Source of the DNA: an uncultured Alphaproteobacteria bacterium
GTDB lineage: Bacteria > Pseudomonadota > Alphaproteobacteria > Rhodobacterales > Rhodobacteraceae
Assembly (NCBI GenBank): GCA_902600895.1
Contig: CACKLF010000010.1
Location: forward strand, 1 to 49,241
DNA: 49,241 nt
Direction of reading: 5' to 3'
A program made the position numbers and the translations under genes. Shown here one piece after another: positions 34,774-48,364 of this stretch; position 1 is the stretch's first letter, and every line of letters starts with the position of its first letter. The notes under the pieces were generated by a model. The model did no database searches. It saw only the letters and a list, made by a program, of their open reading frames with translations, and had not been told where the DNA came from.

Positions 34774-36933
34774 TTGCAAAGTATACCACCTGAAAACAGA
34801 ATTGTATTGGTTGGTGGAGGTCATTCGCATTGCGTATTTTTAAAAATGTGGGCTATGAAAAAAGAAAAGCCAGCCCTTGACATCATATTAATCAACCCAG
34901 AAGGTTTTACACCTTACACAGGTATGCTTCCCGGATTAATCAGTGGAAACTATCAAAGAAAAGATGCTTATGTGGATTTAACAAAATTATGTAATGCGTC
35001 AGGAGTGCGCCTACTAATAGGTACTGTTGAAAAAATTAATCTTTCTAAAAAGTCACTGGTAATAAAGGGTCGGCCTGAAATAACATTTGATATCGTATCA
35101 GTAGACGTCGGAATTAAATCAATAGCTAATGATTTTTTGTCTCAATCTGAAAGACTTGTATCAGCTAAACCCATGGATAGGCTTTACAAAAGGTGGAAAG
35201 AGTTTCTGTCAGAATCACACAAAAATGAAAAAAGTGCGGTGACTATTGTTGGTGGAGGCTTGGGAGGCATAGAGCTCGCTTTTGCAGTTAAAGAGGCTTT
35301 AGAAAAAAAGCAATCACTACATGAAGTGACGGTAATCGACAATGGTAAAATTCTCAAATATGAAACTGCTATTTTAAGGAGGAAGCTAACCAAAATTTTA
35401 TTGGGAAAGAGAGTAAAAATTATCGAAAACACGAATATTTTAAGCATAAATGATAATGAAATTTCTCTTTCAAATGGAACTAGCATTCATAGTGACTTTA
35501 CAATTTTGACTGCGGGGGCACACCCGCACTCATGGATTGAGGAAAGCGGGGTACCTTGTAAAAATGGGTTCATTGTTGTAGATTGTTTTTTAAAATCCCC
35601 AGAGTTTCCCTTCTTATATGCTGCTGGTGATTGTGCTCATCTTGATAGTACACCTAGACCAAAAGCTGGGGTATTTGCTGTCAGGGCAGGACCCTATTTA
35701 TTTTATAACATCATCTCATACATTGAAAATAGAGCTCCTAAAAAATTTTATCCTCAAAAAAATCACCTTAAACTTATTTCTATTGGGAACCAGAAGGCAG
35801 TATCTTCTGGAAGAGGATTTCAGCTCTCAGGAGGTGTGATCTGGTATTGGAAAAATTTAATAGATATGAAATTTATGGAGAGCTTCTCTAAGCTAAAACC
35901 GATGAGTCACAAAAAAGAAGTAGAATCTGGAGAAATACAAAGACAAATGATTTGTGGGGGTTGCGGATCAAAAATTGGTCAGGATTTACTCAATCAAGCA
36001 ACTTCAAAGATAGTTAATAAGAAAAACAAAAATGTACTTAATTCAATAGGTGACGATGCAGCGATAATAAAAATTGATTCATCAAAACAAATTGTTACCA
36101 CCGACCACCTTAAGGCATTTACCAAAGACCCCTGGCTAATGTCTCGTATCTCTATAATTCACTCCTTAGGAGATATTTGGGCTATGGGAAGTAAGCCTAA
36201 ATATGCCTTACTTAATATTATCTTACCTGAAGCAAATAAATCAATTCAAGCAAACTGGTTAGAAGAAATCATGGATGCTGCGAAGTATACTTTTTTAAGT
36301 GAAAACATATCTTTGATTGGCGGTCATACAACCCAGGGAGCAGAATTAACCATAGGAGTTACTCTGTTAGGAGACATGGTTAGCAAACCTACTGAAATTA
36401 GTAATGCTAAAATTGGTGATAAGATTATTCTGACCAAACCTATAGGAACAGGTGTCATTTTAGCAGGTGAGATGCAAGGCTTAACGTCAGCGCAGCATTT
36501 AACAAATGCTCTATCTTGGATGCAAAAAAGCCAAAGCTCACTAATCGAAATAGCGAAAGAATGTAACGCTATTACTGATGTAACTGGATTTGGTTTGATA
36601 GGCCACCTTATGAATATTTGTGAAGCCTCACATGTCTCTGCAACAGTCTCTATTAAAAAGATACCGTTATTAAAAGGAACTATTGAACTTGTGAAAAACG
36701 GTGTAGAGTCCACTCTTTTCCCAGAAAATAAGAGTAAAAATAAAAATGTTCATCTCATTAATGATGAGGCATTAGACTTACTTTTTGATCCTCAAACTAG
36801 TGGTGGTATGTTAATTTCTACCTCAGATAGAAAAGTTAAGGCAGTACAAAATCATTTAACTAAATCAGGATTGCTAAGTTCAGTAATAGGAGAAATGGGG
36901 CGCGGAGAACCACACATATTTATCAGAAATTAG
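34774..36933 (+). CDS. selD: Fusion of NADH dehydrogenase-like FAD oxidoreductase and selenide, water dikinase (SelD)
   Basis: This is a 719-residue bifunctional protein. Residues 1 to about 385 form an NDH-2-like pyridine nucleotide-disulfide oxidoreductase: FAD motif VLVGGGHSHC, NAD motif VTIVGGGLGGIELAF and FLYAAGDCAH. From about 390 it is SelD, which makes selenophosphate from selenide and ATP. Active-site C397 and K400 lie in ICGGCGSKIG, followed by NSIGDDAAI, TTDHLKAF, SLGDIWAMG and LIGGHTTQGAE. The catalytic residue is Cys, not selenocysteine. The start is TTG with AGGAG 8 bases upstream. The oxidoreductase half is presumed to help supply or reduce selenium. It faces selU, so selenophosphate is probably used for tRNA selenouridine. 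Confidence 0.93.
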   Translation: MQSIPPENRIVLVGGGHSHCVFLKMWAMKKEKPALDIILINPEGFTPYTGMLPGLISGNYQRKDAYVDLTKLCNASGVRLLIGTVEKINLSKKSLVIKGRPEITFDIVSVDVGIKSIANDFLSQSERLVSAKPMDRLYKRWKEFLSESHKNEKSAVTIVGGGLGGIELAFAVKEALEKKQSLHEVTVIDNGKILKYETAILRRKLTKILLGKRVKIIENTNILSINDNEISLSNGTSIHSDFTILTAGAHPHSWIEESGVPCKNGFIVVDCFLKSPEFPFLYAAGDCAHLDSTPRPKAGVFAVRAGPYLFYNIISYIENRAPKKFYPQKNHLKLISIGNQKAVSSGRGFQLSGGVIWYWKNLIDMKFMESFSKLKPMSHKKEVESGEIQRQMICGGCGSKIGQDLLNQATSKIVNKKNKNVLNSIGDDAAIIKIDSSKQIVTTDHLKAFTKDPWLMSRISIIHSLGDIWAMGSKPKYALLNIILPEANKSIQANWLEEIMDAAKYTFLSENISLIGGHTTQGAELTIGVTLLGDMVSKPTEISNAKIGDKIILTKPIGTGVILAGEMQGLTSAQHLTNALSWMQKSQSSLIEIAKECNAITDVTGFGLIGHLMNICEASHVSATVSIKKIPLLKGTIELVKNGVESTLFPENKSKNKNVHLINDEALDLLFDPQTSGGMLISTSDRKVKAVQNHLTKSGLLSSVIGEMGRGEPHIFIRN

Positions 36934-36934
36934 C

Positions 36935-37987
36935 TTAAAACTCCAAGCAGCTTTTAATTTTATCCACCGCCACCTTTAAATCTGAAGGTTCGAAATTATC
37001 CAACTTTATCCTCTTAATGATCTGAGAACCATTTTTATCTGATGATGTGCTATATCTTGGATCATAATGATGTTTTATTAACTCCTCAGCCAATTTGATA
37101 TAATTTTTTTCGTTAAATAAATTTGACCAATATAACACCCTTTCAAGTCCCTGAATTTTCTTGAGTGAAGCTAGTTTTTCCAAAAACCTTTTTTGATCTC
37201 TTATCAAGAGCAAATACTCTTTGACCAGATATTTTGACCTTTGCTCTACAGGTCCTGACAGTACAATGCGATCTGCCGTTCTCATTTTTTTCCAAAGGGC
37301 CGAAGGTAAAGATATCCGACCAATTTTGTTTGACTCTGCCTCTAAAACTATTGGTTCTTTTGGATCAAATCTCTTTATCTTTCTATAAAGTTCACTTTCA
37401 AACGACTTTTGGGTTGGTTGAACATCGTCTAAGGAGCCAAAAACTGATCCTTTATGATTTGCCAACCCTTCAAGATCGATAATATTTACACCCTCGTCAC
37501 CAAGCAACTTGAGTATTTGAGTCTTAGCTGTACCTGTATTACCTGCTATTAAATATATCTTTCTTTCGAAAGTATCTTCATATAATGATTTATATATTAT
37601 TTTACGATAAGATTTATAACCACCCTCAATTACTGATACCTTCCATCCCACTTCACTTAATATGGTAGCAAACGCTTTTGACCTTCGTCCTCCACGCCAA
37701 CAATATATCAAAGGCTTCCAAGTCTGGTTATTTTTTACTAGTATTTTTCTTAAATGCTGACCCACATTTTCAGCTATCAATGCTCCACCGAGTTTCCGTG
37801 CCTCAAATGGGCTAACGTTTTTGTAAATACTTCCAACATCTCCTCTCTCTGAGTCAGATAGTGCAGGTAGATTTATGGCCTCAGGAACATGGTCGGCTGA
37901 AAATTCAGAAGGTGAGCGAACATCTATAATTGCATCAAAAGAATTCTCACCTATTTCATTTGCACATATATACTCAATGGGTTTCAT
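36935..37987 (-). CDS. mnmH: tRNA 2-selenouridine synthase
   Basis: MnmH (SelU/YbbB) converts 2-thiouridine to 2-selenouridine at the wobble base of certain tRNAs, using selenophosphate. The 350-residue protein has an N-terminal rhodanese domain with active-site C96 in IYCWRGGRRSKA, and a C-terminal P-loop domain with IAGNTGTAKTQIL (about 149-160). VLEAESNKIGRISLP is a family hallmark. It is convergent with the NDH-SelD fusion, the stops being one base apart. No selA/selB or selenocysteine tRNA is seen in this window. Confidence 0.95.
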   Translation of the reverse strand: MKPIEYICANEIGENSFDAIIDVRSPSEFSADHVPEAINLPALSDSERGDVGSIYKNVSPFEARKLGGALIAENVGQHLRKILVKNNQTWKPLIYCWRGGRRSKAFATILSEVGWKVSVIEGGYKSYRKIIYKSLYEDTFERKIYLIAGNTGTAKTQILKLLGDEGVNIIDLEGLANHKGSVFGSLDDVQPTQKSFESELYRKIKRFDPKEPIVLEAESNKIGRISLPSALWKKMRTADRIVLSGPVEQRSKYLVKEYLLLIRDQKRFLEKLASLKKIQGLERVLYWSNLFNEKNYIKLAEELIKHHYDPRYSTSSDKNGSQIIKRIKLDNFEPSDLKVAVDKIKSCLEF

Positions 37988-38893: not shown

Positions 38894-39745
38894 TTAGAGG
38901 TTTAAGGCACTTACAATCCATGTGCTAAAATTCATCATAATACCTTCGTCAGTTTCATATTTACTTAACTCCAACTTAAGGGCTTCGAAGAATCTTTCTC
39001 TTGTTTTGCTACCTGAATTTTCTATTGGACCAGACATTGGACCCATCCTTCCAAGAAATCTCGCTGCCTCATCTAAGGTTCTACCAGCACTATGCGCACA
39101 CGAAAAATTTTCAAAGCTAACATTTTTCCATCCAGCTTCATTTAGAATACTTATTACATATTCTTTGTCTTCAAAAGCAAAGGGGCCTGGTGTTTTTTCT
39201 GGAGGGGTTGGGGGCAATTCAAGAAATCGAGAAGCAATTTCAGTTGGGAGCTCTATCCAGTCATTCTCGAGACGTTCAGCCCAACAGGCAAATATAAATC
39301 TCCCACCTCTTTTTAAACTTCTTCTTAAATTACTGAAAGCAACTACTGGGTTATCAAAAAACATTACCCCAAATCTACTAAATAAGGCATCAAACGAATT
39401 TTCTTTAAATTCATAAGTCTGAAGGTCGGCCAAGGTATACTTTATGTTGACAAGGTTGCTATTAATTCTTCTTTTTTCAGCATAATCTAACATTGGCTCA
39501 CTTATATCAAAGCCCTGAACCAAGCCACTTTTTCCTATTTTTTTACTAATCAAAAAGCTCATCGTACCAGTTCCACAACCTAGTTCTGCAATCTTTTCTC
39601 CTTCAATAGGGTTAAGTTTACTCAGAGCCGCCTCACCGATAGGCTTGAGCAATGAGTCAATCTTAGGCTGCAACTCGACCCAAGACTTTCCTTTGGATTC
39701 ATTCCAAAATTTTTTTTGATCAACATTAACTTTGCTGGTTTGCAT
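38894..39745 (-). CDS. Class I SAM-dependent methyltransferase (UbiE-like)
   Basis: The 283-residue protein has SAM motif I IAELGCGTGTMSFLI and post-I VQGFDISEPMLDYAEKR. Motif II follows in FDALFSRFGVMFFDNPVVAFSNLRRSLKRGG (FSRFG is typical), with FIFACW after it. It resembles UbiE/COQ5-type methyltransferases, with an extra C-terminal region of about 90 residues (LPPTPPEKTPGPFAFEDKEYV). The substrate is unknown. It is divergent from the MetE-like operon and shares a roughly 120-base regulatory gap with it. Confidence 0.85.
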   Translation of the reverse strand: MQTSKVNVDQKKFWNESKGKSWVELQPKIDSLLKPIGEAALSKLNPIEGEKIAELGCGTGTMSFLISKKIGKSGLVQGFDISEPMLDYAEKRRINSNLVNIKYTLADLQTYEFKENSFDALFSRFGVMFFDNPVVAFSNLRRSLKRGGRFIFACWAERLENDWIELPTEIASRFLELPPTPPEKTPGPFAFEDKEYVISILNEAGWKNVSFENFSCAHSAGRTLDEAARFLGRMGPMSGPIENSGSKTRERFFEALKLELSKYETDEGIMMNFSTWIVSALNL

Positions 39746-39866
39746 TAAATTTCCTTAATCAAAGAACATTTACAAAAACCTTTCCGAACAATAACAAAAC
39801 ATTTATAAAGTTAAATTACAAATAATTATTGATGGTTTCAGTAACCTTACAATGAGAGAAAATACT

Positions 39867-40988
39867 ATGTCAGAATTAAAGCCGCCATTCAGAGCAGACC
39901 ATGTTGGAAGCTTGTTAAGAACCACAGAATTGAAACATGCTAGGAATAAACACTTTAACGAGGAGTCCATTTCAGCCGACGAATTGAAGGAGATAGAAAA
40001 TAAAGAGATTATTAATAATATAAAAATGCAAGAAAATGCGGGCTTAGTTGCTATCACAGATGGAGAGGCGCGGCGCTCATTTTGGCACTATGATTTTATG
40101 GGTAGTTTAAGTGGTTTGGACTTGGTTGAACGCGATGAAGGGGTTCAATTTGCCACTATGAAACTTCGACCAATCTTTCCCACAATTACTGACACACTGG
40201 ACTTTCCTCGCGACCACCCTATGCTTTCCCACTATCAATATGTTGCAGAAAATACAAAAATGATCCCTAAAATTTCTATTCCGGGTCCGAGCAGTTGTCA
40301 CTTTAGGACTGCATTAACTGATATACACCCCGAAAAATATAAAGACCTTGACTTATTATGCACAGACATATCAAAAGCATATAAAAAAGCTGTGAAAGCC
40401 TTTTATGATGTTGGTTGCAGGTATTTGCAAATGGATGATATTTTCTTCGCGTATCTTTGTGATCCCAAGCATAGGCAAGCAAAGAAAGATGAAGGGATGG
40501 ATCCAGATGATCTTATTAAGAGATATGCAAAAATGATGTATGAAGCTATTGCTGAGCGGCCAAAAGATATGATAATTGGAATGCATCTGTGTCGAGGAAA
40601 CTTTCGATCTACCCACGCTGCGGAGGGTGCCTATGATCTGGCAGCTGACGCCGTTTTTAATATGACTGATGTCGATGTGTTTTTTATGGAATATGACACT
40701 CAAAGAGCCGGAGGATTAGAGCCTTTACGACTTCTGGCAAAAGGTAAGCAGAGAGTTCTGCCTGGATTCATTACCACAAAGACTGGAGAATTAGAAAAAT
40801 TAGATGATCTAAAAAGAAAATTTGAGGAAGCAGCACAATTTGTAGACATGGATCAGCTTGGAATAGCTCCGCAATGCGGTTTCTCTTCAACAGAAGAGGG
40901 GAATGATTTATCTATAGATGATCAAAAAAGAAAACTTGATCTCGTAGTGAAGGTTGCTGAAAGTATTTGGGGCGGGGTTAATACTTAA
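39867..40988 (+). CDS. MetE C-terminal-domain-like methyltransferase (cobalamin-independent methionine synthase family, COG0620)
   Basis: The 373-residue protein covers only the catalytic barrel of MetE and lacks its N-terminal domain. It opens with PPFRADHVGSLLR. The zinc ligands are present: H and C in GMHLCRGN, E in FFMEYD, and C in IAPQCGFSS. The in-frame ATG at 39852 has no ribosome site; ATG 39867 has AGAGA 8 bases upstream and is preferred. Family members transfer methyl groups to thiols. Short forms like this may use substrates other than methyltetrahydrofolate, so calling it methionine synthase would be unsafe. It heads an operon with a desaturase and a TIM-barrel protein. Confidence 0.85.
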   Translation: MSELKPPFRADHVGSLLRTTELKHARNKHFNEESISADELKEIENKEIINNIKMQENAGLVAITDGEARRSFWHYDFMGSLSGLDLVERDEGVQFATMKLRPIFPTITDTLDFPRDHPMLSHYQYVAENTKMIPKISIPGPSSCHFRTALTDIHPEKYKDLDLLCTDISKAYKKAVKAFYDVGCRYLQMDDIFFAYLCDPKHRQAKKDEGMDPDDLIKRYAKMMYEAIAERPKDMIIGMHLCRGNFRSTHAAEGAYDLAADAVFNMTDVDVFFMEYDTQRAGGLEPLRLLAKGKQRVLPGFITTKTGELEKLDDLKRKFEEAAQFVDMDQLGIAPQCGFSSTEEGNDLSIDDQKRKLDLVVKVAESIWGGVNT

Positions 40989-41009
40989 CTCAGTTAGGAG
41001 AAAATTAAA

Positions 41010-41993
41010 ATGGAAGAAAGTTTTTCACGAAGAAATATTTTGTCACCAGGAGAGTTGAGAACACTTAACCAAAAGTCCAACCTGATGGGATTTCTACAAC
41101 TAATTAGTCATTTAGCACTAATTTTTACAGTTGGATATGCTCACTTTTATGTTAGTGGGTCTTGGTTATGCCTCATAACAGGCTTTGGACTCGGCGTATT
41201 GGTGAACTTTTTATACGCTGGTCAGCATGAACTATCCCATTCAACAGTATTCAAGACGCCATTAATAAATGAACTTTGTGGAAGAATTATCGGGTTTTTC
41301 ATGTTTTTCCCTAGAGATTTTGACCAAATTATGCACTTTGCTCATCATAAATTTACGCAAAATTGGGAAAAAGATGGGGAGCTTGTACGAGAACCGTTTA
41401 CACTTAGCTCTTATTTGTTATGGCTTTTCGGAGTAACTTATTGGAAAAATAGGTGGATTGGAATCATTAGGCGAAGTTTAGGAAAGATAATCGAACCATA
41501 TATTTTTAAAAGCCAGGAGCGAAAAGTTATAATTGAGTCTCGTGTGCATCTTGTGGGATATCTGTTAATATTTTTTACTTCCATTTATTTTCAAAGCTGG
41601 ATTGCAGTTTATTACTGGATACTACCTATGATACTCACTAAACCTATACACCAGCTCCAAAACACAATTGAACATTTGGGTTTGTCTCATGAGAGCGATA
41701 TTTTGCACAATACTCGATCGACAAAGACAAATTTTTTCTTTAAATGGCTATGTTGGCAAATGCCTTATCATACCGCTCACCATACCTTCCCATCTGTCCC
41801 ATTTTGGAAACTGAAGCATCTAAACAAAAAAGTTGAGGACATATCCGGTCCCGTACATTCTATGGGATGGCTTGAATTCCAATTTGAGGTAATATCAAAA
41901 CTCCTTGAAAAAGATGAAAGTCAATGGCCGGCTTCCGAAGTTTGGGTTGTTTCTAGTAAAGATAAGAAAAAAGAGTTTAAATTAGAAGCATGA
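41010..41993 (+). CDS. Membrane fatty acid desaturase-type di-iron enzyme
   Basis: The 327-residue membrane protein has the three histidine boxes of the desaturase/hydroxylase superfamily: H73-x3-H77 (GQHELSHST), H109-x2-H112-H113 (MHFAHHKF) and H254-x2-H257-H258 (YHTAHHTF). Between them are four hydrophobic helices. A further IHQLQNTIEHLG adds histidines. The family covers acyl-lipid desaturases, carotenoid ketolases and sterol/alkane hydroxylases, so the substrate is open. It lies 21 bases behind the MetE-like gene and overlaps the next gene by 4 bases (ATGA). That points to a shared pathway rather than routine lipid metabolism. Confidence 0.88.
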   Translation: MEESFSRRNILSPGELRTLNQKSNLMGFLQLISHLALIFTVGYAHFYVSGSWLCLITGFGLGVLVNFLYAGQHELSHSTVFKTPLINELCGRIIGFFMFFPRDFDQIMHFAHHKFTQNWEKDGELVREPFTLSSYLLWLFGVTYWKNRWIGIIRRSLGKIIEPYIFKSQERKVIIESRVHLVGYLLIFFTSIYFQSWIAVYYWILPMILTKPIHQLQNTIEHLGLSHESDILHNTRSTKTNFFFKWLCWQMPYHTAHHTFPSVPFWKLKHLNKKVEDISGPVHSMGWLEFQFEVISKLLEKDESQWPASEVWVVSSKDKKKEFKLEA

Positions 41994-42847
41994 CAGAGAA
42001 AGGTCACTCCTTAAAAATTTTTACATCTCTATGGTCTATGAAGCCGCATGACCACACTGGAAAAATATTGTCACATCAAGATATCTGTTTGAAAGTAAAG
42101 GATGCTGAGTTTGACGGGCTTGCCTTGGATCTAGGAGCAAGTGACATCAATGAAGCAAAGGCCATTCAACCATATCTGGAAAAAAATGATCTCATACCCT
42201 TAATCGTAGCTTTCCCCAAAACAGTAGCGTCGCTTGAAGATACTTTACTTATGGCAAAGGATTTTGGATCTCCATTTGTAGATGTGATTGGACAGGTGAC
42301 CCCTCTATCAATTGAAGGCATGGTACCCATAATTAGAGATTGGTTAGAGATGTCTGATAAAGTGAATATGCCTATACTTTTTGAAACCCATAGAAACTGC
42401 ATTACTAATGACTTATACACCACACTGCTGCTACTAGACGCTATCCCTGAAATGAGGTTGTGTGCAGATCTATCTCACTATGTTGTTGATAGAGAGTTCT
42501 GGTATCCTTTAAGTAATAGGGATTTAGGATTGATATCAAGAATTATAGACAGATCAGATAGTTTCCAAGGAAGAGTGGCAAGCCGACAACAAATTCAGTT
42601 ACAACTAAATTTTCCTCAAAATAAAAAATGGATAGATTTGTTTAAAAGTTGGTGGAAAGAGGGTATTTATAAATGGAAAAAACGCAATTTTTGTGATGAT
42701 TTCTTATTCCTTTGTGAGTTAGGCCCTCCTGAATACGCTATGACGGATCAATTTGGTAGAGAAATGTCCAATAGATGGGAAGAGTCTCTTCTTATTAAAT
42801 CATGGATCCAAGAAATATGGAATGCTACAGACAAATCTGGGAATTAA
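41990..42847 (+). CDS. Xylose-isomerase-like TIM-barrel protein (sugar phosphate isomerase/epimerase type)
   Basis: The 285-residue protein fits the AP-endonuclease-2/xylose-isomerase-like barrel. It has FDGLALDLGA, MPILFETHRNC (metal-binding glutamate and histidine) and MRLCADLSHYVV (aspartate, histidine). Near the end are GRVASRQQIQLQ and FLFLCELGPPEYA (glutamate). This set of D/H/E residues suggests an intact divalent-metal site. The chemistry could be isomerase, epimerase or lyase. The ATG overlaps the desaturase stop, so translation is coupled. No identity more specific than the fold is safe. Confidence 0.75.
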   Translation: MTEKGHSLKIFTSLWSMKPHDHTGKILSHQDICLKVKDAEFDGLALDLGASDINEAKAIQPYLEKNDLIPLIVAFPKTVASLEDTLLMAKDFGSPFVDVIGQVTPLSIEGMVPIIRDWLEMSDKVNMPILFETHRNCITNDLYTTLLLLDAIPEMRLCADLSHYVVDREFWYPLSNRDLGLISRIIDRSDSFQGRVASRQQIQLQLNFPQNKKWIDLFKSWWKEGIYKWKKRNFCDDFLFLCELGPPEYAMTDQFGREMSNRWEESLLIKSWIQEIWNATDKSGN

Positions 42848-43889: not shown

Positions 43890-45053
43890 TCATGCCTTAA
43901 AAATTCCGTCCAAATCATTATTTTTATATTTCAAAAACCTATTATCGTAAATACCAAACCAGTCAGCCAAAATTCTTTCATAAACGGCTCTATAATCCAT
44001 GGTAAACCTCATATCACCATCTTCCAATTTACCTAAATCAGGATGGACCCCCCAAAACCCACCATTTACAGACCCCCCAACTACAAAATGAGGGGCAGCA
44101 GTACCATGATCTGTTCCATCCGTGTAGTTTTCTGCCGCTCTTCTACCAAATTCTGAGTAAGTCATTATTAAAGTATTTTCCCACTGGCCTATTTTCTTTA
44201 GCGCTTTTGCAAAGTCAGCTGTTGCGCGCCCTAGACTCCGTAATCTGTTCCTATGCCTCCATGGCTGGCCTTCATGGGTGTCAAATCCCCCTATTTTGAC
44301 TTTTAAAATTGGAGAACTAATACCCGCATTTATCAATAGTATAGCTCTAGTGAACTGTGCTCCAAGATCACCACCCTCTATTTGAAAGTCCCTAATATAG
44401 CTTTTCTTCAATTTTCTAGAAATACTTTCCATTGAGGAGTTCAACGTATGAGCTCTGTCAAGTAACATTCTAAGTGCCTCATTTTTTGTATCCACTGCTG
44501 GCACTTCATCAGAAGTTAGCTCCATAAATTGTTGCGCTGAAGTCATAGACAACCAGATACCTGATGGAGATGAAAAAATTCCCATACCACCGTCGAGACT
44601 AATACCATGAGCCTCTAATTGATCGTGACCTGATAGACTCTCAATATCCTCAGTCAGCCAGCCATTGCGACCCGAACCACTTCCATCACCACCGGTCTCC
44701 CAAAGCGCTATTGATTTAAAATGAGAACGATTAGCACCAGGATATCCCAATCCGTGAATGATAGCCATCTCTCCTGCTTCCCAAAGTTTTCCTACAGATT
44801 TCATGGCATCGTGAAGGCCAAAATCTTTTGACAAGGTTATTGTTTCTGACTTGTCCAGGCCTATATTGGGTCTCAGTTCCCTGTATCTGTGATCATTTAA
44901 GGGAATTACTGTATTTAGCCCATCATTTGCACCAGATAGTTCAATGAGAACTAATCTCCTACCTGATTTTTGTGCTGCATAGGCTATCTTAAGCGGCACA
45001 ACAGGAATCACAATTCCTGAAACCAAAATTTTTAATACTGACCTTCTGTCCAC
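43890..45053 (-). CDS. DUF1501 family protein with Tat-like signal
   Basis: The 387-residue protein begins MDRRSVLKILVSGIVIP, a twin-arginine-like leader ending near AYAAQ, so it is exported. The body shows the DUF1501 layout: LVLIELSGANDGLNTVIP, PGANRSHFKSIALWETG, TYSEFGRRAAENYTDGTDHGTAAPHFVVGGSVNGG and C-terminal FTMDYRAVYERILADWFG. This family is related to the sulfatase/alkaline-phosphatase-like fold by its metal-site D and H residues. Its function is unknown. The start is GTG. It lies 8 bases after the DUF1800 gene, the common partner of DUF1501. Confidence 0.92.
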   Translation of the reverse strand: MDRRSVLKILVSGIVIPVVPLKIAYAAQKSGRRLVLIELSGANDGLNTVIPLNDHRYRELRPNIGLDKSETITLSKDFGLHDAMKSVGKLWEAGEMAIIHGLGYPGANRSHFKSIALWETGGDGSGSGRNGWLTEDIESLSGHDQLEAHGISLDGGMGIFSSPSGIWLSMTSAQQFMELTSDEVPAVDTKNEALRMLLDRAHTLNSSMESISRKLKKSYIRDFQIEGGDLGAQFTRAILLINAGISSPILKVKIGGFDTHEGQPWRHRNRLRSLGRATADFAKALKKIGQWENTLIMTYSEFGRRAAENYTDGTDHGTAAPHFVVGGSVNGGFWGVHPDLGKLEDGDMRFTMDYRAVYERILADWFGIYDNRFLKYKNNDLDGIFKA

Positions 45054-45061
45054 ATTAATAC

Positions 45062-48000
45062 CTATTTTAAATTATAGACTGGATCAGTTATTATTGAAGA
45101 TACATCTTCGCTAGTTCTAGATACAACTACCGGATCTACCGCCAAAAACAGATCTGCTAATGACACTATATGATTATCTCTAAAAGATTTTTCTATTTCA
45201 AACAAGCTAGTTTTTGGTTTTGTGTTAGCTGGAAATGGAATACCCGTCTTCAATCCCTCCATCATAGACATCATATTCGCACTTTCTTGGGATGGGCGGA
45301 CAATTAGTGGTTCTGAGCCCACAGATTTAACATAACGAGTTTTTGGTAATGTCTTCAAGATGAAATCTAATGTATCTGACCAACCGTCTGTTCGCTCTCT
45401 TTCTACTGCTCTTTTCCATTCTCTTCCCTTCTTAATTTCTTCAAAAATTTTTGGCATTGACGCCCACAAGGCATCTACAAATTTCCTGTCAGACTTTTCG
45501 AGGCCCCAGTAGTGCGCTTCGTGATCTTCGTTGTTTCTTCGGATTAAAGAAATTTTTATATCTTTATTATAGGGAGGCCTGTCACTTTTATGAACTTTCT
45601 GAGGCCACCGATTTTCAAAGCAATCAGGGTAGCATCCCATCGATGACAACATCAAAAAAAGATTACCATTTTTTCTTTTTACCAATTTTATTCGTATAGC
45701 ATTATACCTAATATTGTTAAACTTAACATTCAAAAGATTTATGGCAATCTCATTCCAATCTCTGTTTTTGTTAAACCGATTCATCCAGCTCAAACCTGCA
45801 CGCTCGACATATAGTTTATCTCGTTTGTCACTATCTAGTTTATTAGAACTATTGCTATCTACTAAAGAAATAGATTTTCTCATTTCAACCCAACCACTAC
45901 AATATAGTTCACCAGGATCACTGTCACACGTATTGCCATGTTGCTCACCGTCACTAGATAAAAAAAGTTCATTATCAACTTTAATCCAATCAACAAAAAA
46001 GTTTCGGTCTCCGTTATCACTGCCGCCAGGACCACAACAGTGATCATTCATAAAGGTAACTTCTACGGTGTCGAATTCATCACCATTTTCAATATTTAGT
46101 TGCAATGTTTGCCATGGAAGTTGAGAAGCATCCTTAATTCTACCAAACTTTTCCGTATCATGACCGTTTACAGCTTTATGCGTAGAGGAATAGATAAGTC
46201 CAGTCTTTTTGATTGATCGCAAGCATCTCTTTGATAGGTATTGTATATCATTAAAATTTGCTTTATCAGCCCAAAATTTATCTCCTGCCCGACTTTCTAC
46301 TGCACTTAATTTAACTAATAAGTTCCCAAGAAACTCTTTCTTTCCCAGATGTGAGCACAAACCTTGCAGAATGCGTTTATCATTTGATGATAAATGTCTG
46401 TATAATTTATCGAATCTACCATCCCTAAGAGAATCTGAATTTATAAAAAACACTCCAGGAGAAGTATCTTTGTAGTCGCTTAATTCTTGGGGAATTTCAG
46501 CCTCAAAAGTGTCTTCAATTAACTTAATACCATAAAAATCACCCCAAACAGCATGGCCTTCAAGCCCAACTGTTATCACTTTTTTCATTCCTTCTAACTT
46601 CGAAGTAACATCCTTGAATGTTAAAGTAGCATGAATCAATTCATCTCCAACCAATTTTTCTGATACCTCGTAATCACTGTACATAAACGGCATGCTAACT
46701 TCCCTCTTCACAATATTATTAATCAATTGAATTTTAAATTTGGATGGTCCTTTATAATCTTCCGAGGCATATCGAAGCGCTATCGACCGTTTTGTCATCT
46801 CAACAGGAGCTGTCTGAGCATTTACCATATTCTCTACATTAGAACCTAAAGAAGAAAAAAAACTCTTTGCTAAATAAGATCTATTTAACAGACCTGATGG
46901 TGTAATCCAACTTTGACCACCTGGCCAGCCAGCAACGTTAGGATGCTCGAATAAATTTTGTCCTAGCAAGCTTAATTTATTTGGCAATGTATTCCAGTCA
47001 GCGGGTAGAAATCCCGTACTCCGAATTGTTCCAATCAGATAATCAACTGGTGATTTCACAATCGTTGCACGCACACTCTCATCCCAAAACGCTTTTGAAG
47101 TAAGAACTGATCTCAACAAAGTTCTGATGTCAAAGTCACTCCTTTTAAACCTTTTGGCTATAGACGTTATCTCTTCTTCATTTTCAGCGACCTCCGAAAC
47201 AAAATATCTCCAAAATTTTCTTGTCAGAAACTCTGATGCATTTTCTTGCTCAAATAATATATCAACAAATTGGTCTCCATTAAAATCTCCTGACTTGCCA
47301 AAAATACTTTTAATACCATTGTCATGTCTCCACCCATCGAACATAAATGATGTATTTCTTATTTTATTTATTGAATAGCCTGTTAGAGCACGAGCTCCCT
47401 CCTTAACAGTTTTTTCAGAATAGTTGCCTTCTCCTAATACGAATAATTCCATTAACTCACGCGATAAATTCTCATTTGGCTTTCCTTTTTCTGAAAACTC
47501 ATTATCCAAATAATTGAGCATGGCCGGATCCTTAATAACTGACTTCGTGAGCATTTTGAAATTTCCAGAACCAAGTTCCCTGAACATGATGTTTTGCCTA
47601 GCTATTGAAGTGGATTGCTCGTTTATCGCAGAGTATGATGATACGAAATGGTTGTGCCAGAAAAGAACAAGGCGTTCAGTTTGAGGAGATGGTGTTTCTA
47701 TCATCTCTTTCACCCACCAAATTCGATACTCACTCATCTCCCGATCTCTTGCAACTCTAAAAGACTGTTCTTCCTCGCTATTAAGATCACCATCTATCCA
47801 ATAGGGTGGATTGGGGCCATCAAGGAATTTTGGCAAAGGAAGCCAGCTTTCAGTTTTAATCTCATTTATAATATAGCTTATTGCTTTTGATCGTGTCATA
47901 CCCATCAGTTTGTTCACATCTTTTATATTAGCTCCAATTCCAACCCTTTCCAAAAGATGCCTAGCATCACCTATACCAATCTTTTTCTGAAGAAAGTCTT

Positions 48001-48301
48001 TGGAACTCTCATCCAATTCTTGTTGTTCATTCCAAAGTTCATACACTGAGTTTATTGACCTTTGAATGTCGACAGAATCTAATGTCATTTTCTGTCTTTT
48101 ATGGAACATTGACAATGCACGCGCCGTTTTACCCCCCCAAAGCCCATCAGCCTTTCCAGGATTAAAGCCAGTGAGGATCAAAGCTCTTTGAAGTTGCTCA
48201 ACTTTGGAGTCATAATTAGAGGCAGACGCTACGCCAAAAAAAAGAAAAGGAATGGCAAGAACCAAAGTTATGGTAAAATTAAATATAAAATGAGTTTTCA
48301 T
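45062..48301 (-). CDS. Very large secreted DUF1800 protein with peptidoglycan-binding and carbohydrate-binding-like domains
   Basis: The 1079-residue protein has a signal peptide (MKTHFIFNFTITLVLAIP), then a PG_binding_1-like repeat (VEQLQRALILTGFNPGKADGLWG). From about residue 110 it has DUF1800, with ARHLLERVGIG, LVLFWHNHFVSS, LSRELMELFVLGEGNYSE, FLTRKFWRYFVSE and NVAGWPGGQSWITP. About half of the protein follows the DUF1800 core. Near residue 750 there is VEVTFMNDHCCGPGG ... GDRNFFVDWIKVDN, resembling calcium-dependent xylan-binding modules (CBM60/36 type). The start at 48301 has GGA upstream; a start at 48322 is also open. DUF1800 proteins are usually near 500 residues, so this is a doubled-length version. 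It is co-transcribed with DUF1501. Confidence 0.85.
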   Translation of the reverse strand: MKTHFIFNFTITLVLAIPFLFFGVASASNYDSKVEQLQRALILTGFNPGKADGLWGGKTARALSMFHKRQKMTLDSVDIQRSINSVYELWNEQQELDESSKDFLQKKIGIGDARHLLERVGIGANIKDVNKLMGMTRSKAISYIINEIKTESWLPLPKFLDGPNPPYWIDGDLNSEEEQSFRVARDREMSEYRIWWVKEMIETPSPQTERLVLFWHNHFVSSYSAINEQSTSIARQNIMFRELGSGNFKMLTKSVIKDPAMLNYLDNEFSEKGKPNENLSRELMELFVLGEGNYSEKTVKEGARALTGYSINKIRNTSFMFDGWRHDNGIKSIFGKSGDFNGDQFVDILFEQENASEFLTRKFWRYFVSEVAENEEEITSIAKRFKRSDFDIRTLLRSVLTSKAFWDESVRATIVKSPVDYLIGTIRSTGFLPADWNTLPNKLSLLGQNLFEHPNVAGWPGGQSWITPSGLLNRSYLAKSFFSSLGSNVENMVNAQTAPVEMTKRSIALRYASEDYKGPSKFKIQLINNIVKREVSMPFMYSDYEVSEKLVGDELIHATLTFKDVTSKLEGMKKVITVGLEGHAVWGDFYGIKLIEDTFEAEIPQELSDYKDTSPGVFFINSDSLRDGRFDKLYRHLSSNDKRILQGLCSHLGKKEFLGNLLVKLSAVESRAGDKFWADKANFNDIQYLSKRCLRSIKKTGLIYSSTHKAVNGHDTEKFGRIKDASQLPWQTLQLNIENGDEFDTVEVTFMNDHCCGPGGSDNGDRNFFVDWIKVDNELFLSSDGEQHGNTCDSDPGELYCSGWVEMRKSISLVDSNSSNKLDSDKRDKLYVERAGLSWMNRFNKNRDWNEIAINLLNVKFNNIRYNAIRIKLVKRKNGNLFLMLSSMGCYPDCFENRWPQKVHKSDRPPYNKDIKISLIRRNNEDHEAHYWGLEKSDRKFVDALWASMPKIFEEIKKGREWKRAVERERTDGWSDTLDFILKTLPKTRYVKSVGSEPLIVRPSQESANMMSMMEGLKTGIPFPANTKPKTSLFEIEKSFRDNHIVSLADLFLAVDPVVVSRTSEDVSSIITDPVYNLK

Positions 48302-48364
48302 CTGAAAATCCAAAAAATGCATTTTAATTTTATCATTTAGTTTTTTTAGTGCAATAATGTAAAT

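Follow-up and report, generated by a model that had tools for sequence, protein, structure and literature searches.

DES and TIM, two adjacent genes of an uncultured alphaproteobacterium of the family Rhodobacteraceae, form an almost perfectly co-inherited pair. They lie, with a third gene (MET) in front of them, in a stretch of 49,241 nucleotides (nt) that was analyzed as a whole (the window; contig CACKLF010000010.1 of assembly GCA_902600895.1). Each of the three encoded proteins belongs to a known superfamily: MET resembles the core of the methionine synthase MetE, DES is a membrane di-iron enzyme, and TIM is a TIM-barrel protein. The three-gene trio is not a general unit. DES and TIM are almost certainly functionally paired, and on balance we favor a reading in which they catalyze successive steps of a single aerobic pathway, probably a catabolic one, that acts on a small organic molecule, with MET added in one genus. 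The three genes are as follows.

39867..40988, + strand: MET, core-MetE-like zinc-site methyltransferase of the PRK06520/NF005085 subfamily, 373 amino acids, without the N-terminal half of MetE (Pfam, NCBIfam, 1ypx, MetE alignment)
41010..41993, + strand: DES, membrane di-iron oxygenase or desaturase-type protein, PF00487, 327 amino acids (Pfam, histidine conservation, AF2)
41990..42847, + strand: TIM, xylose-isomerase-like TIM-barrel protein of an unnamed family, 285 amino acids (AF2, VIA, AsbF alignment)

Co-inheritance of DES and TIM

Inspection of the open reading frames of the window agreed with the layout given in a preliminary description of this DNA. The MET stop codon ends at 40988 and the DES ATG lies at 41010, leaving a gap of 21 bases, and DES and TIM overlap by 4 bases (ATGA). 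The genus is known here from two genomes, that of the window (a 1.59-Mb assembly with a completeness of 60%) and one other, the congener. The congener carries the block in the same order, SAM-MET-DES-TIM followed by an EamA transporter gene, where SAM is a methyltransferase gene divergent from MET. Identities between the two genomes were 83% for MET, 80% for DES, 79 to 81% for TIM, 67% for SAM, and 60% for EamA; the MET-DES gap is 31 nt in the congener, and the DES-TIM overlap is again 4 nt. The ATG at 39867 is backed as the MET start by the congener, in which the same ATG aligns and a longer start at 39852 does not. Conservation of the trio exceeds chance, with all three genes kept in the congener at 79 to 83% amino acid identity and DES-TIM kept far beyond it. 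The genes are coupled, as the preliminary description held, and their adjacency is not unique to one genome, yet the trio is known from one genus only.

A TIM-profile scan of 84,980 species genomes confirmed TIM relatives in at least 574 stretches. The best 80 of these, mostly from Rhodobacteraceae genera, Planktomarina, Litoreibacter, Marivita, and SAR116, served as a set of loci (numbered with L; genomes with G). In 75 of the 80, DES preceded TIM on the same strand, within 90 nt in 67 and with 0.7 to 1.2 kb between the genes in 8. MET was found at a single TIM locus, that of the congener; some of the loci are short contigs, in which neighbors past the ends are unseen. Five loci had no DES in the piece (L162, L169, L175, L178, and L182); for L162, DES is present in another part of the genome (G505). 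The idea that the three families make up a general trio was not upheld, as gene neighborhoods show MET beside DES-TIM in one genus only.

Co-occurrence was examined in the window's family, in a sample of 295 genomes (the TIM and DES searches both report 295, taken as one set). A close TIM (E ≤ 1e-110) was present in 23 genomes and a close DES (E ≤ 1e-138) in 22, all of them inside the 23 (Fisher P = 2.7e-32, uncorrected for relatedness). These limits were chosen after the scores had been seen, at a clear split: the next DES rows stood at about 1e-64 and the next TIM rows at 1e-12. DES rows at E of about 1e-60 to 3e-64 fell outside the close class, and the remote TIM matches G026 and G464:C15 (E of about 1e-11 and 1e-12) were excluded from the 23. 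The lone TIM genome with no close DES, G484, is fragmented (870 contigs). In 16 of the 23 genomes, a whole DES was no more than 1.5 kb from TIM; the distance was 1.4 to 1.6 kb in G429 and G438, and G604, G566, G505, and G652 keep both genes at widely separated positions. By adjacency (75/80 loci) and by co-occurrence (22/23 genomes), DES and TIM are thus a conserved pair. Such strict co-inheritance, which persists in genomes with widely separated genes, makes the function of DES-TIM directly testable.

Active sites and families of the three proteins

DES matched Pfam FA_desaturase (PF00487) with 124 bits against a gathering cutoff of 29.7, and its histidine boxes are conserved, which places it in that family. 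Invariant in a 14-sequence DES alignment (A3) were H73, H77, H109, H112, H113, H222, H254, H257, and H258; in a 40-sequence alignment (A4), H73 was merely nearly invariant. The AF2 model of DES had a pLDDT of 81.8. Foldseek with this model returned two chains at E ≤ 0.001, each belonging to a chloroplast FtsHi motor complex (TM 0.65 to 0.66), and weaker rows for FtAlkB and SCD1; searches of solved structures with the DES protein and with a DES profile gave no match. DES was rejected as an equivalog of GntB, DesA, or CrtW, with 24.6, 26.3, and 19.9 bits against NCBIfam cutoffs of 380, 500, and 350. In the DES tree, the TIM-linked proteins by topology appear to form one clade apart from row L183, a row that is itself wrong in that a shadow reading frame was taken there. 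DES shares 25% identity with a MocD-like protein of R. etli, which falls in a separate clade. In one locus (L105:9269-9958), a 229-amino-acid protein encoded between DES and TIM is a possible electron carrier; it has no NCBIfam match, and its cysteine motifs are of a kind that we take to be CDGSH-like.

TIM had no Pfam or NCBIfam match at 1e-3 and so falls outside Pfam AP_endonuc_2 (PF01261) at that level. Its AF2 model (pLDDT 89.2) predicts a xylose-isomerase-like TIM barrel. VIA with the model gave Art22 (Z 20.0, 242 residues, root mean square deviation [rmsd] 3.6) and IolE (Z 19.6, 242 residues, rmsd 3.1) as tied rows, with many xylose-isomerase-like barrels close behind (rmsd of the leading rows, 3.1 to 3.8). 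TIM carries the motifs E132-T-H134, D160-x-S-H163, and E243-L-G-P. Its profile matched AsbF weakly (E = 0.0047 and 0.027 in two alignments), with ETHRNCITND of TIM falling on ETHPNTLTD of AsbF. E132, H134, D160, and H163 of TIM match E142, H144, D172, and H175 of AsbF, and E243 was assigned by position. E132 and D160 are invariant in TIM family alignments, in which H134 and H163 are the sole invariant histidines. AsbF is a 3-dehydroshikimate dehydratase with H144, H175, and H198 in its active site; according to PMC9324987, its E142, D172, and E253 are metal ligands and H198 binds the product. By this comparison, the metal site ascribed to TIM at the outset looks intact for the acidic ligands only; for AsbF His198, TIM has no invariant histidine. 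A viral contig scan that used TIM as the query gave no relatives. In public plasmid records, TIM relatives are labelled sugar phosphate isomerase and fatty acid desaturase. Similarity of TIM to the R. etli isomerase encoded beside mocD was also considered and rejected, no sequence similarity being detectable.

MET matched Pfam Meth_synt_2 with 59 bits and the NCBIfam model PRK06520 (NF005085) with 435.4 bits, above its cutoff of 313, which places MET in that subfamily; it scored below the cutoffs of all remaining NCBIfam methionine synthase models. At 373 amino acids it matches the catalytic domain only, without the N-terminal folate-binding half of a full MetE, as had been noted before. The nearest solved structure was 1ypx (E = 3.6e-96). 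The zinc-binding residues of MetE are established, and the HxC...E...C of MET aligns with the MetE chain and with 1ypx, so that the zinc ligands reported at first appear from the alignment to be present. MET was rejected as a MesD, since it scored 45 bits against a cutoff of 392 for NF006589, which we take to be the MesD model; DUF1852, the MesD partner, was absent among seven other proteins tested around MET. Relatives of MET at 64 to 70% identity occur in three other genera, in surroundings with no DES or TIM and in genomes with no TIM match. In two genomes, MET relatives (L209:5560-8285 and L212:4777-8160) lie near flavoprotein monooxygenase-like genes that by eye resemble PobA.

A possible oxidative route and its alternatives

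Oxygenases of other kinds stand beside many TIM relatives. In a class-wide sample of 385 genomes, TIM was present in 28, at 31 places; DES was adjacent at 14 and absent beside the other 17. A PhyH gene lay within 3.1 kb of TIM at no fewer than 9 of these 17 places, whereas the density of PhyH genes in these genomes predicts 0.52 (naive P = 1.7e-10, which is too small: the 3.1-kb limit was set afterwards, and the nine cases come from five families). Rhizobial plasmids were represented by 8 annotated regions with TIM, hand-chosen from 40 listed of 82 records and including near relatives. Seven of the eight had a hydroxylase-type membrane enzyme, a Rieske or MocE-type ferredoxin, and a flavin adenine dinucleotide (FAD) reductase beside TIM, and the eighth had PhyH; the hydroxylase was assigned to PF04116 by Pfam in two regions and by phmmer plus record annotation in the others. 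A Rieske ring-hydroxylating oxygenase lies near the TIM relative of L101. The conjecture that oxygenation is part of the chemistry is very likely correct, given that DES and TIM are co-inherited and that TIM relatives are often found beside other oxygenases.

One-carbon (C1) genes were found at some of the same loci. FrmA (formaldehyde dehydrogenase) was encoded near TIM, on its strand, in 6 of 131 loci scanned, which overlap partly (e.g., L035 and L104): L096, L097, L098, L103, L317, and L318. In L097:761-3591 and L103:8590-11532, the genes for TIM, S-formylglutathione hydrolase (FghA), and S-(hydroxymethyl)glutathione dehydrogenase stand in a row on one strand, and L103 has PhyH nearby as well. 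The presence of formaldehyde-oxidation genes suggests that at least those oxygenases demethylate. PanB-like genes lie beside an oxygenase gene in L229, L230, L306, and the R. etli locus L235. L306:1180-9848 has agmatinase-family, TIM, and DES genes and, near them, genes for a MocD-type oxygenase, a PanB-like protein, and a MocE-type ferredoxin, with MocD-PanB-MocE about 3 kb from TIM.

We propose that a small molecule would be taken up by lineage-specific transporters and attacked by DES with O2, either by hydroxylation or with a methyl group removed oxidatively as formaldehyde. TIM, as a putative metal-dependent barrel akin in fold to IolE, AsbF, and sugar epimerases, would then isomerize, epimerize, or dehydrate the DES product. 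MET, added to the front of the operon in one genus, would serve one-carbon or methionine metabolism alongside the pair and would not be required for the DES-TIM route. Oxidation by DES followed by action of TIM on the product is probable, and demethylation by DES is a tentative suggestion. Methyl transfer, put forward in the preliminary description, is possible as a step of the route. If DES-TIM is a two-step oxidative module, many Alphaproteobacteria have a metabolic capacity that is without an assigned function. The diversity of the oxygenases that accompany a single TIM family restricts the candidate substrates. No description of the DES-TIM pair, its strict co-inheritance, or the oxygenase range around TIM was found in the titles and abstract starts of the papers that searches of an open-access library listed, which is not proof that none exists.

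Several points weigh against a two-step catabolic route. A catabolic rather than a biosynthetic direction is not proven, and DES could be a desaturase. The neighbors of DES-TIM vary and none is universal; therefore, the substrate is not fixed by context. In the four genomes with a distant DES, TIM adjoins DUF1611 and aminotransferase-type genes (assigned partly by eye) and could serve another route. AsbF His198 has no invariant histidine counterpart in the TIM family, in which only glutamines such as Q193, Q201, or Q203 could take its place. As to electron supply, a phmmer search up to 9 kb from TIM, in both the window and the congener, found no match to the rhizobial MocE ferredoxin or reductase, and on this basis the locus does not qualify as a MocDEF-type three-component system; Rieske proteins exist elsewhere in the window's genome. 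Most of the loci behind the DES and TIM profiles were linked ones, the E-value limits were set after the results, and the naive PhyH P value is too small. PhyH and FrmA cases beside TIM come from few lineages. For eight of the 17 places with no adjacent DES, no nearby PhyH was listed (other oxygenases were not subject to a systematic search); one of the eight, L097, has FrmA and FghA. All six FrmA cases belong to sister TIM clades, and none of the DES-linked loci among the 131 had FrmA at a distance of up to 4 kb from TIM (no search for FghA was made there).

MET is most likely a genus-specific addition, which may be a passenger or may have a C1-linked role. As a passenger, it would be a housekeeping-type core methionine synthase that fronts DES-TIM in one genus and shares transcription only, a serious contender that we rate just short of probable. 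MET adjoins DES-TIM in the two genomes of that genus only, its relatives at 64 to 70% identity are found in genomes with no TIM match, and no MET is seen in 74 of the 75 DES-adjacent TIM loci, some of which do not extend far enough upstream to include it. A further methionine route probably exists as well: both genomes of the genus encode corrinoid (B12)-binding and S-methyl_trans proteins, so that MET need not be the sole methionine synthase, and MET as the only methionine route is unlikely. Set against this are the tight MET-DES spacing, kept at 21 nt in the window and 31 nt in the congener, and the 83% identity of MET between the two, slightly above that of DES and TIM.

A different substrate class would dispense with demethylation. 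DES would hydroxylate an amino-acid-like or guanidino compound, as GntB does arginine, and TIM would convert the product; we consider this unlikely. The weak match of DES to GntB (24.6 bits) fits it but is far under the cutoff of 380. The neighborhood of TIM was counted within 7 kb in the 80 loci, each cluster being named from one tested representative. An arginase-family cluster was present in 16 loci; one member was confirmed by Pfam, and the member in L306 passes the NCBIfam agmatinase cutoff. These genes lie mostly on the opposite strand, and they may reflect mere conserved synteny. Parts of Opp/Dpp-type transporters, in 11 to 12 loci, agree with such a substrate and equally with the uptake proposed above for the favored route; consistent with the guanidino or amino-acid-like substrate are also the DUF1611 (11 loci), MR_MLE (10), and aminotransferase class IV (9) clusters; LysR was found in 12 loci and BKACE in 8. 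DUF1611, MR_MLE, and class IV aminotransferase genes lie downstream of TIM on the same strand in L112, L124, L127, L162, L172, and others, as well as in L299, L301, L303, and L305; by eye, the four genomes with a distant DES show them too. This set resembles what is presumably a D-glutamate pathway.

A broader version of the DES-TIM route is improbable and is offered as speculation. TIM would be the constant half of a widespread pathway served by at least three kinds of oxygenase, namely, membrane desaturase-type, membrane hydroxylase-type with its own carriers, and soluble PhyH. A C1 group would be oxidatively removed from a small metabolite, TIM would act on the remainder, and MET would have been gained here so that some of the released C1 or methyl group ends up in methionine.

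It would be surprising if MET with DES (and TIM) were an O2-dependent methionine synthase like MesD/MesX, with the oxygenase pair releasing or producing a methyl donor from which MET would methylate homocysteine. MesD, another core MetE, requires its partner MesX and oxygen according to PMC7857596. MET has the zinc-ligand residues and no folate half, and C1 genes occur at some sister TIM loci. Opposed to this are the 45 bits against a cutoff of 392 for NF006589, which we assume to be the MesD model, the presence of DES-TIM nearly everywhere without MET, and the lack of an S-adenosylmethionine riboswitch upstream of MET. That DES is an ordinary lipid or carotenoid desaturase, adjacent to TIM by coincidence, agrees with its PF00487 membership and its weak DesA and CrtW matches but is very improbable in view of the scores (26 bits against 500 and 20 against 350) and the near-perfect adjacency and co-occurrence with TIM.

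Flanking genes and comparison with known systems

Two further features border the DES-TIM operon of the window.

38894..39745, − strand: SAM, class I S-adenosylmethionine-dependent methyltransferase, divergent from MET; association uncertain (Pfam, NCBIfam)
39746..39866, no strand: SAM-MET intergenic stretch, Rfam negative, partly conserved in the congener

SAM, which had been thought a possible member of the system, was found at 1 of the 80 TIM loci, that of the congener, and the gene content past SAM differs between the two genomes. An Rfam scan of the whole window at the gathering score found no riboswitch or other RNA family, and matches at E ≤ 5 in 39600-40000 were at chance level only; an S-adenosylmethionine riboswitch or other known RNA before MET was rejected on these grounds. 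At 34774-37987, the window encodes an oxidoreductase/SelD fusion (Nterm_to_SelD, 389 bits; selD, 267 bits; both above the cutoff), adjoined on the opposite strand by the gene for the tRNA 2-selenouridine synthase MnmH. Downstream, at 43890-48322, lie genes for two large proteins (387 and 1,086 amino acids) that are strongly conserved and in the same order in the congener. Past SAM, the congener (L035:15633-19901) has putative transporter-like genes whose sequence clusters are also represented upstream of DES in L074 and L075.

The system shares parts with several that have been described. GntB, the L-arginine hydroxylase of guanitoxin biosynthesis, is a distant relative of DES (24.6 bits, far below the equivalog cutoff of 380). 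AsbF, IolE, and related barrels share the fold of TIM (VIA Z 17.8 to 20, rows partly tied), and AsbF shares its ETH...D..H pattern; TIM differs in being 14 to 16% identical to them, in having no invariant third histidine, and in falling outside AP_endonuc_2 at 1e-3. MesA to MesD are core synthases without the folate half, and MesD needs an O2-dependent partner, according to Price et al. (PMC7857596). MesD resembles MET in being a core MetE with conserved zinc ligands. MET differs in belonging to another subfamily, its partner would be a membrane di-iron enzyme and not DUF1852, and there is no evidence for an obligate partnership.

In rhizobia, mocDEF removes the methyl group of 3-O-methyl-scyllo-inosamine. 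The rhizopine genes mocDEF/mocC resemble DES-TIM in placing a PF00487 oxygenase near a xylose-isomerase-like protein. They differ in that DES falls in a clade apart from the MocD-like protein of R. etli, no MocE or reductase gene stands beside DES in the window, and the R. etli isomerase shows no sequence similarity to TIM that could be detected. Homologues of pfam01261 sugar epimerases are reported near mocDEF in PMC3538637, and rhizopine loci provide a precedent for an oxygenase with a xylose-isomerase-like protein (PMC3538637 and PMC10107442). The rhizobial plasmid operons differ in their oxygenase, a PF04116 enzyme with no meaningful BLASTP match to DES, and in having their own electron carriers; several of these loci also carry sugar-type regulators and transporters. 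In these operons, which combine a PF04116 hydroxylase, a MocE-type ferredoxin, an FAD reductase, and TIM, the same TIM family (35 to 39% identity among the rows listed) stands, as in the window, beside a membrane di-iron-type enzyme.

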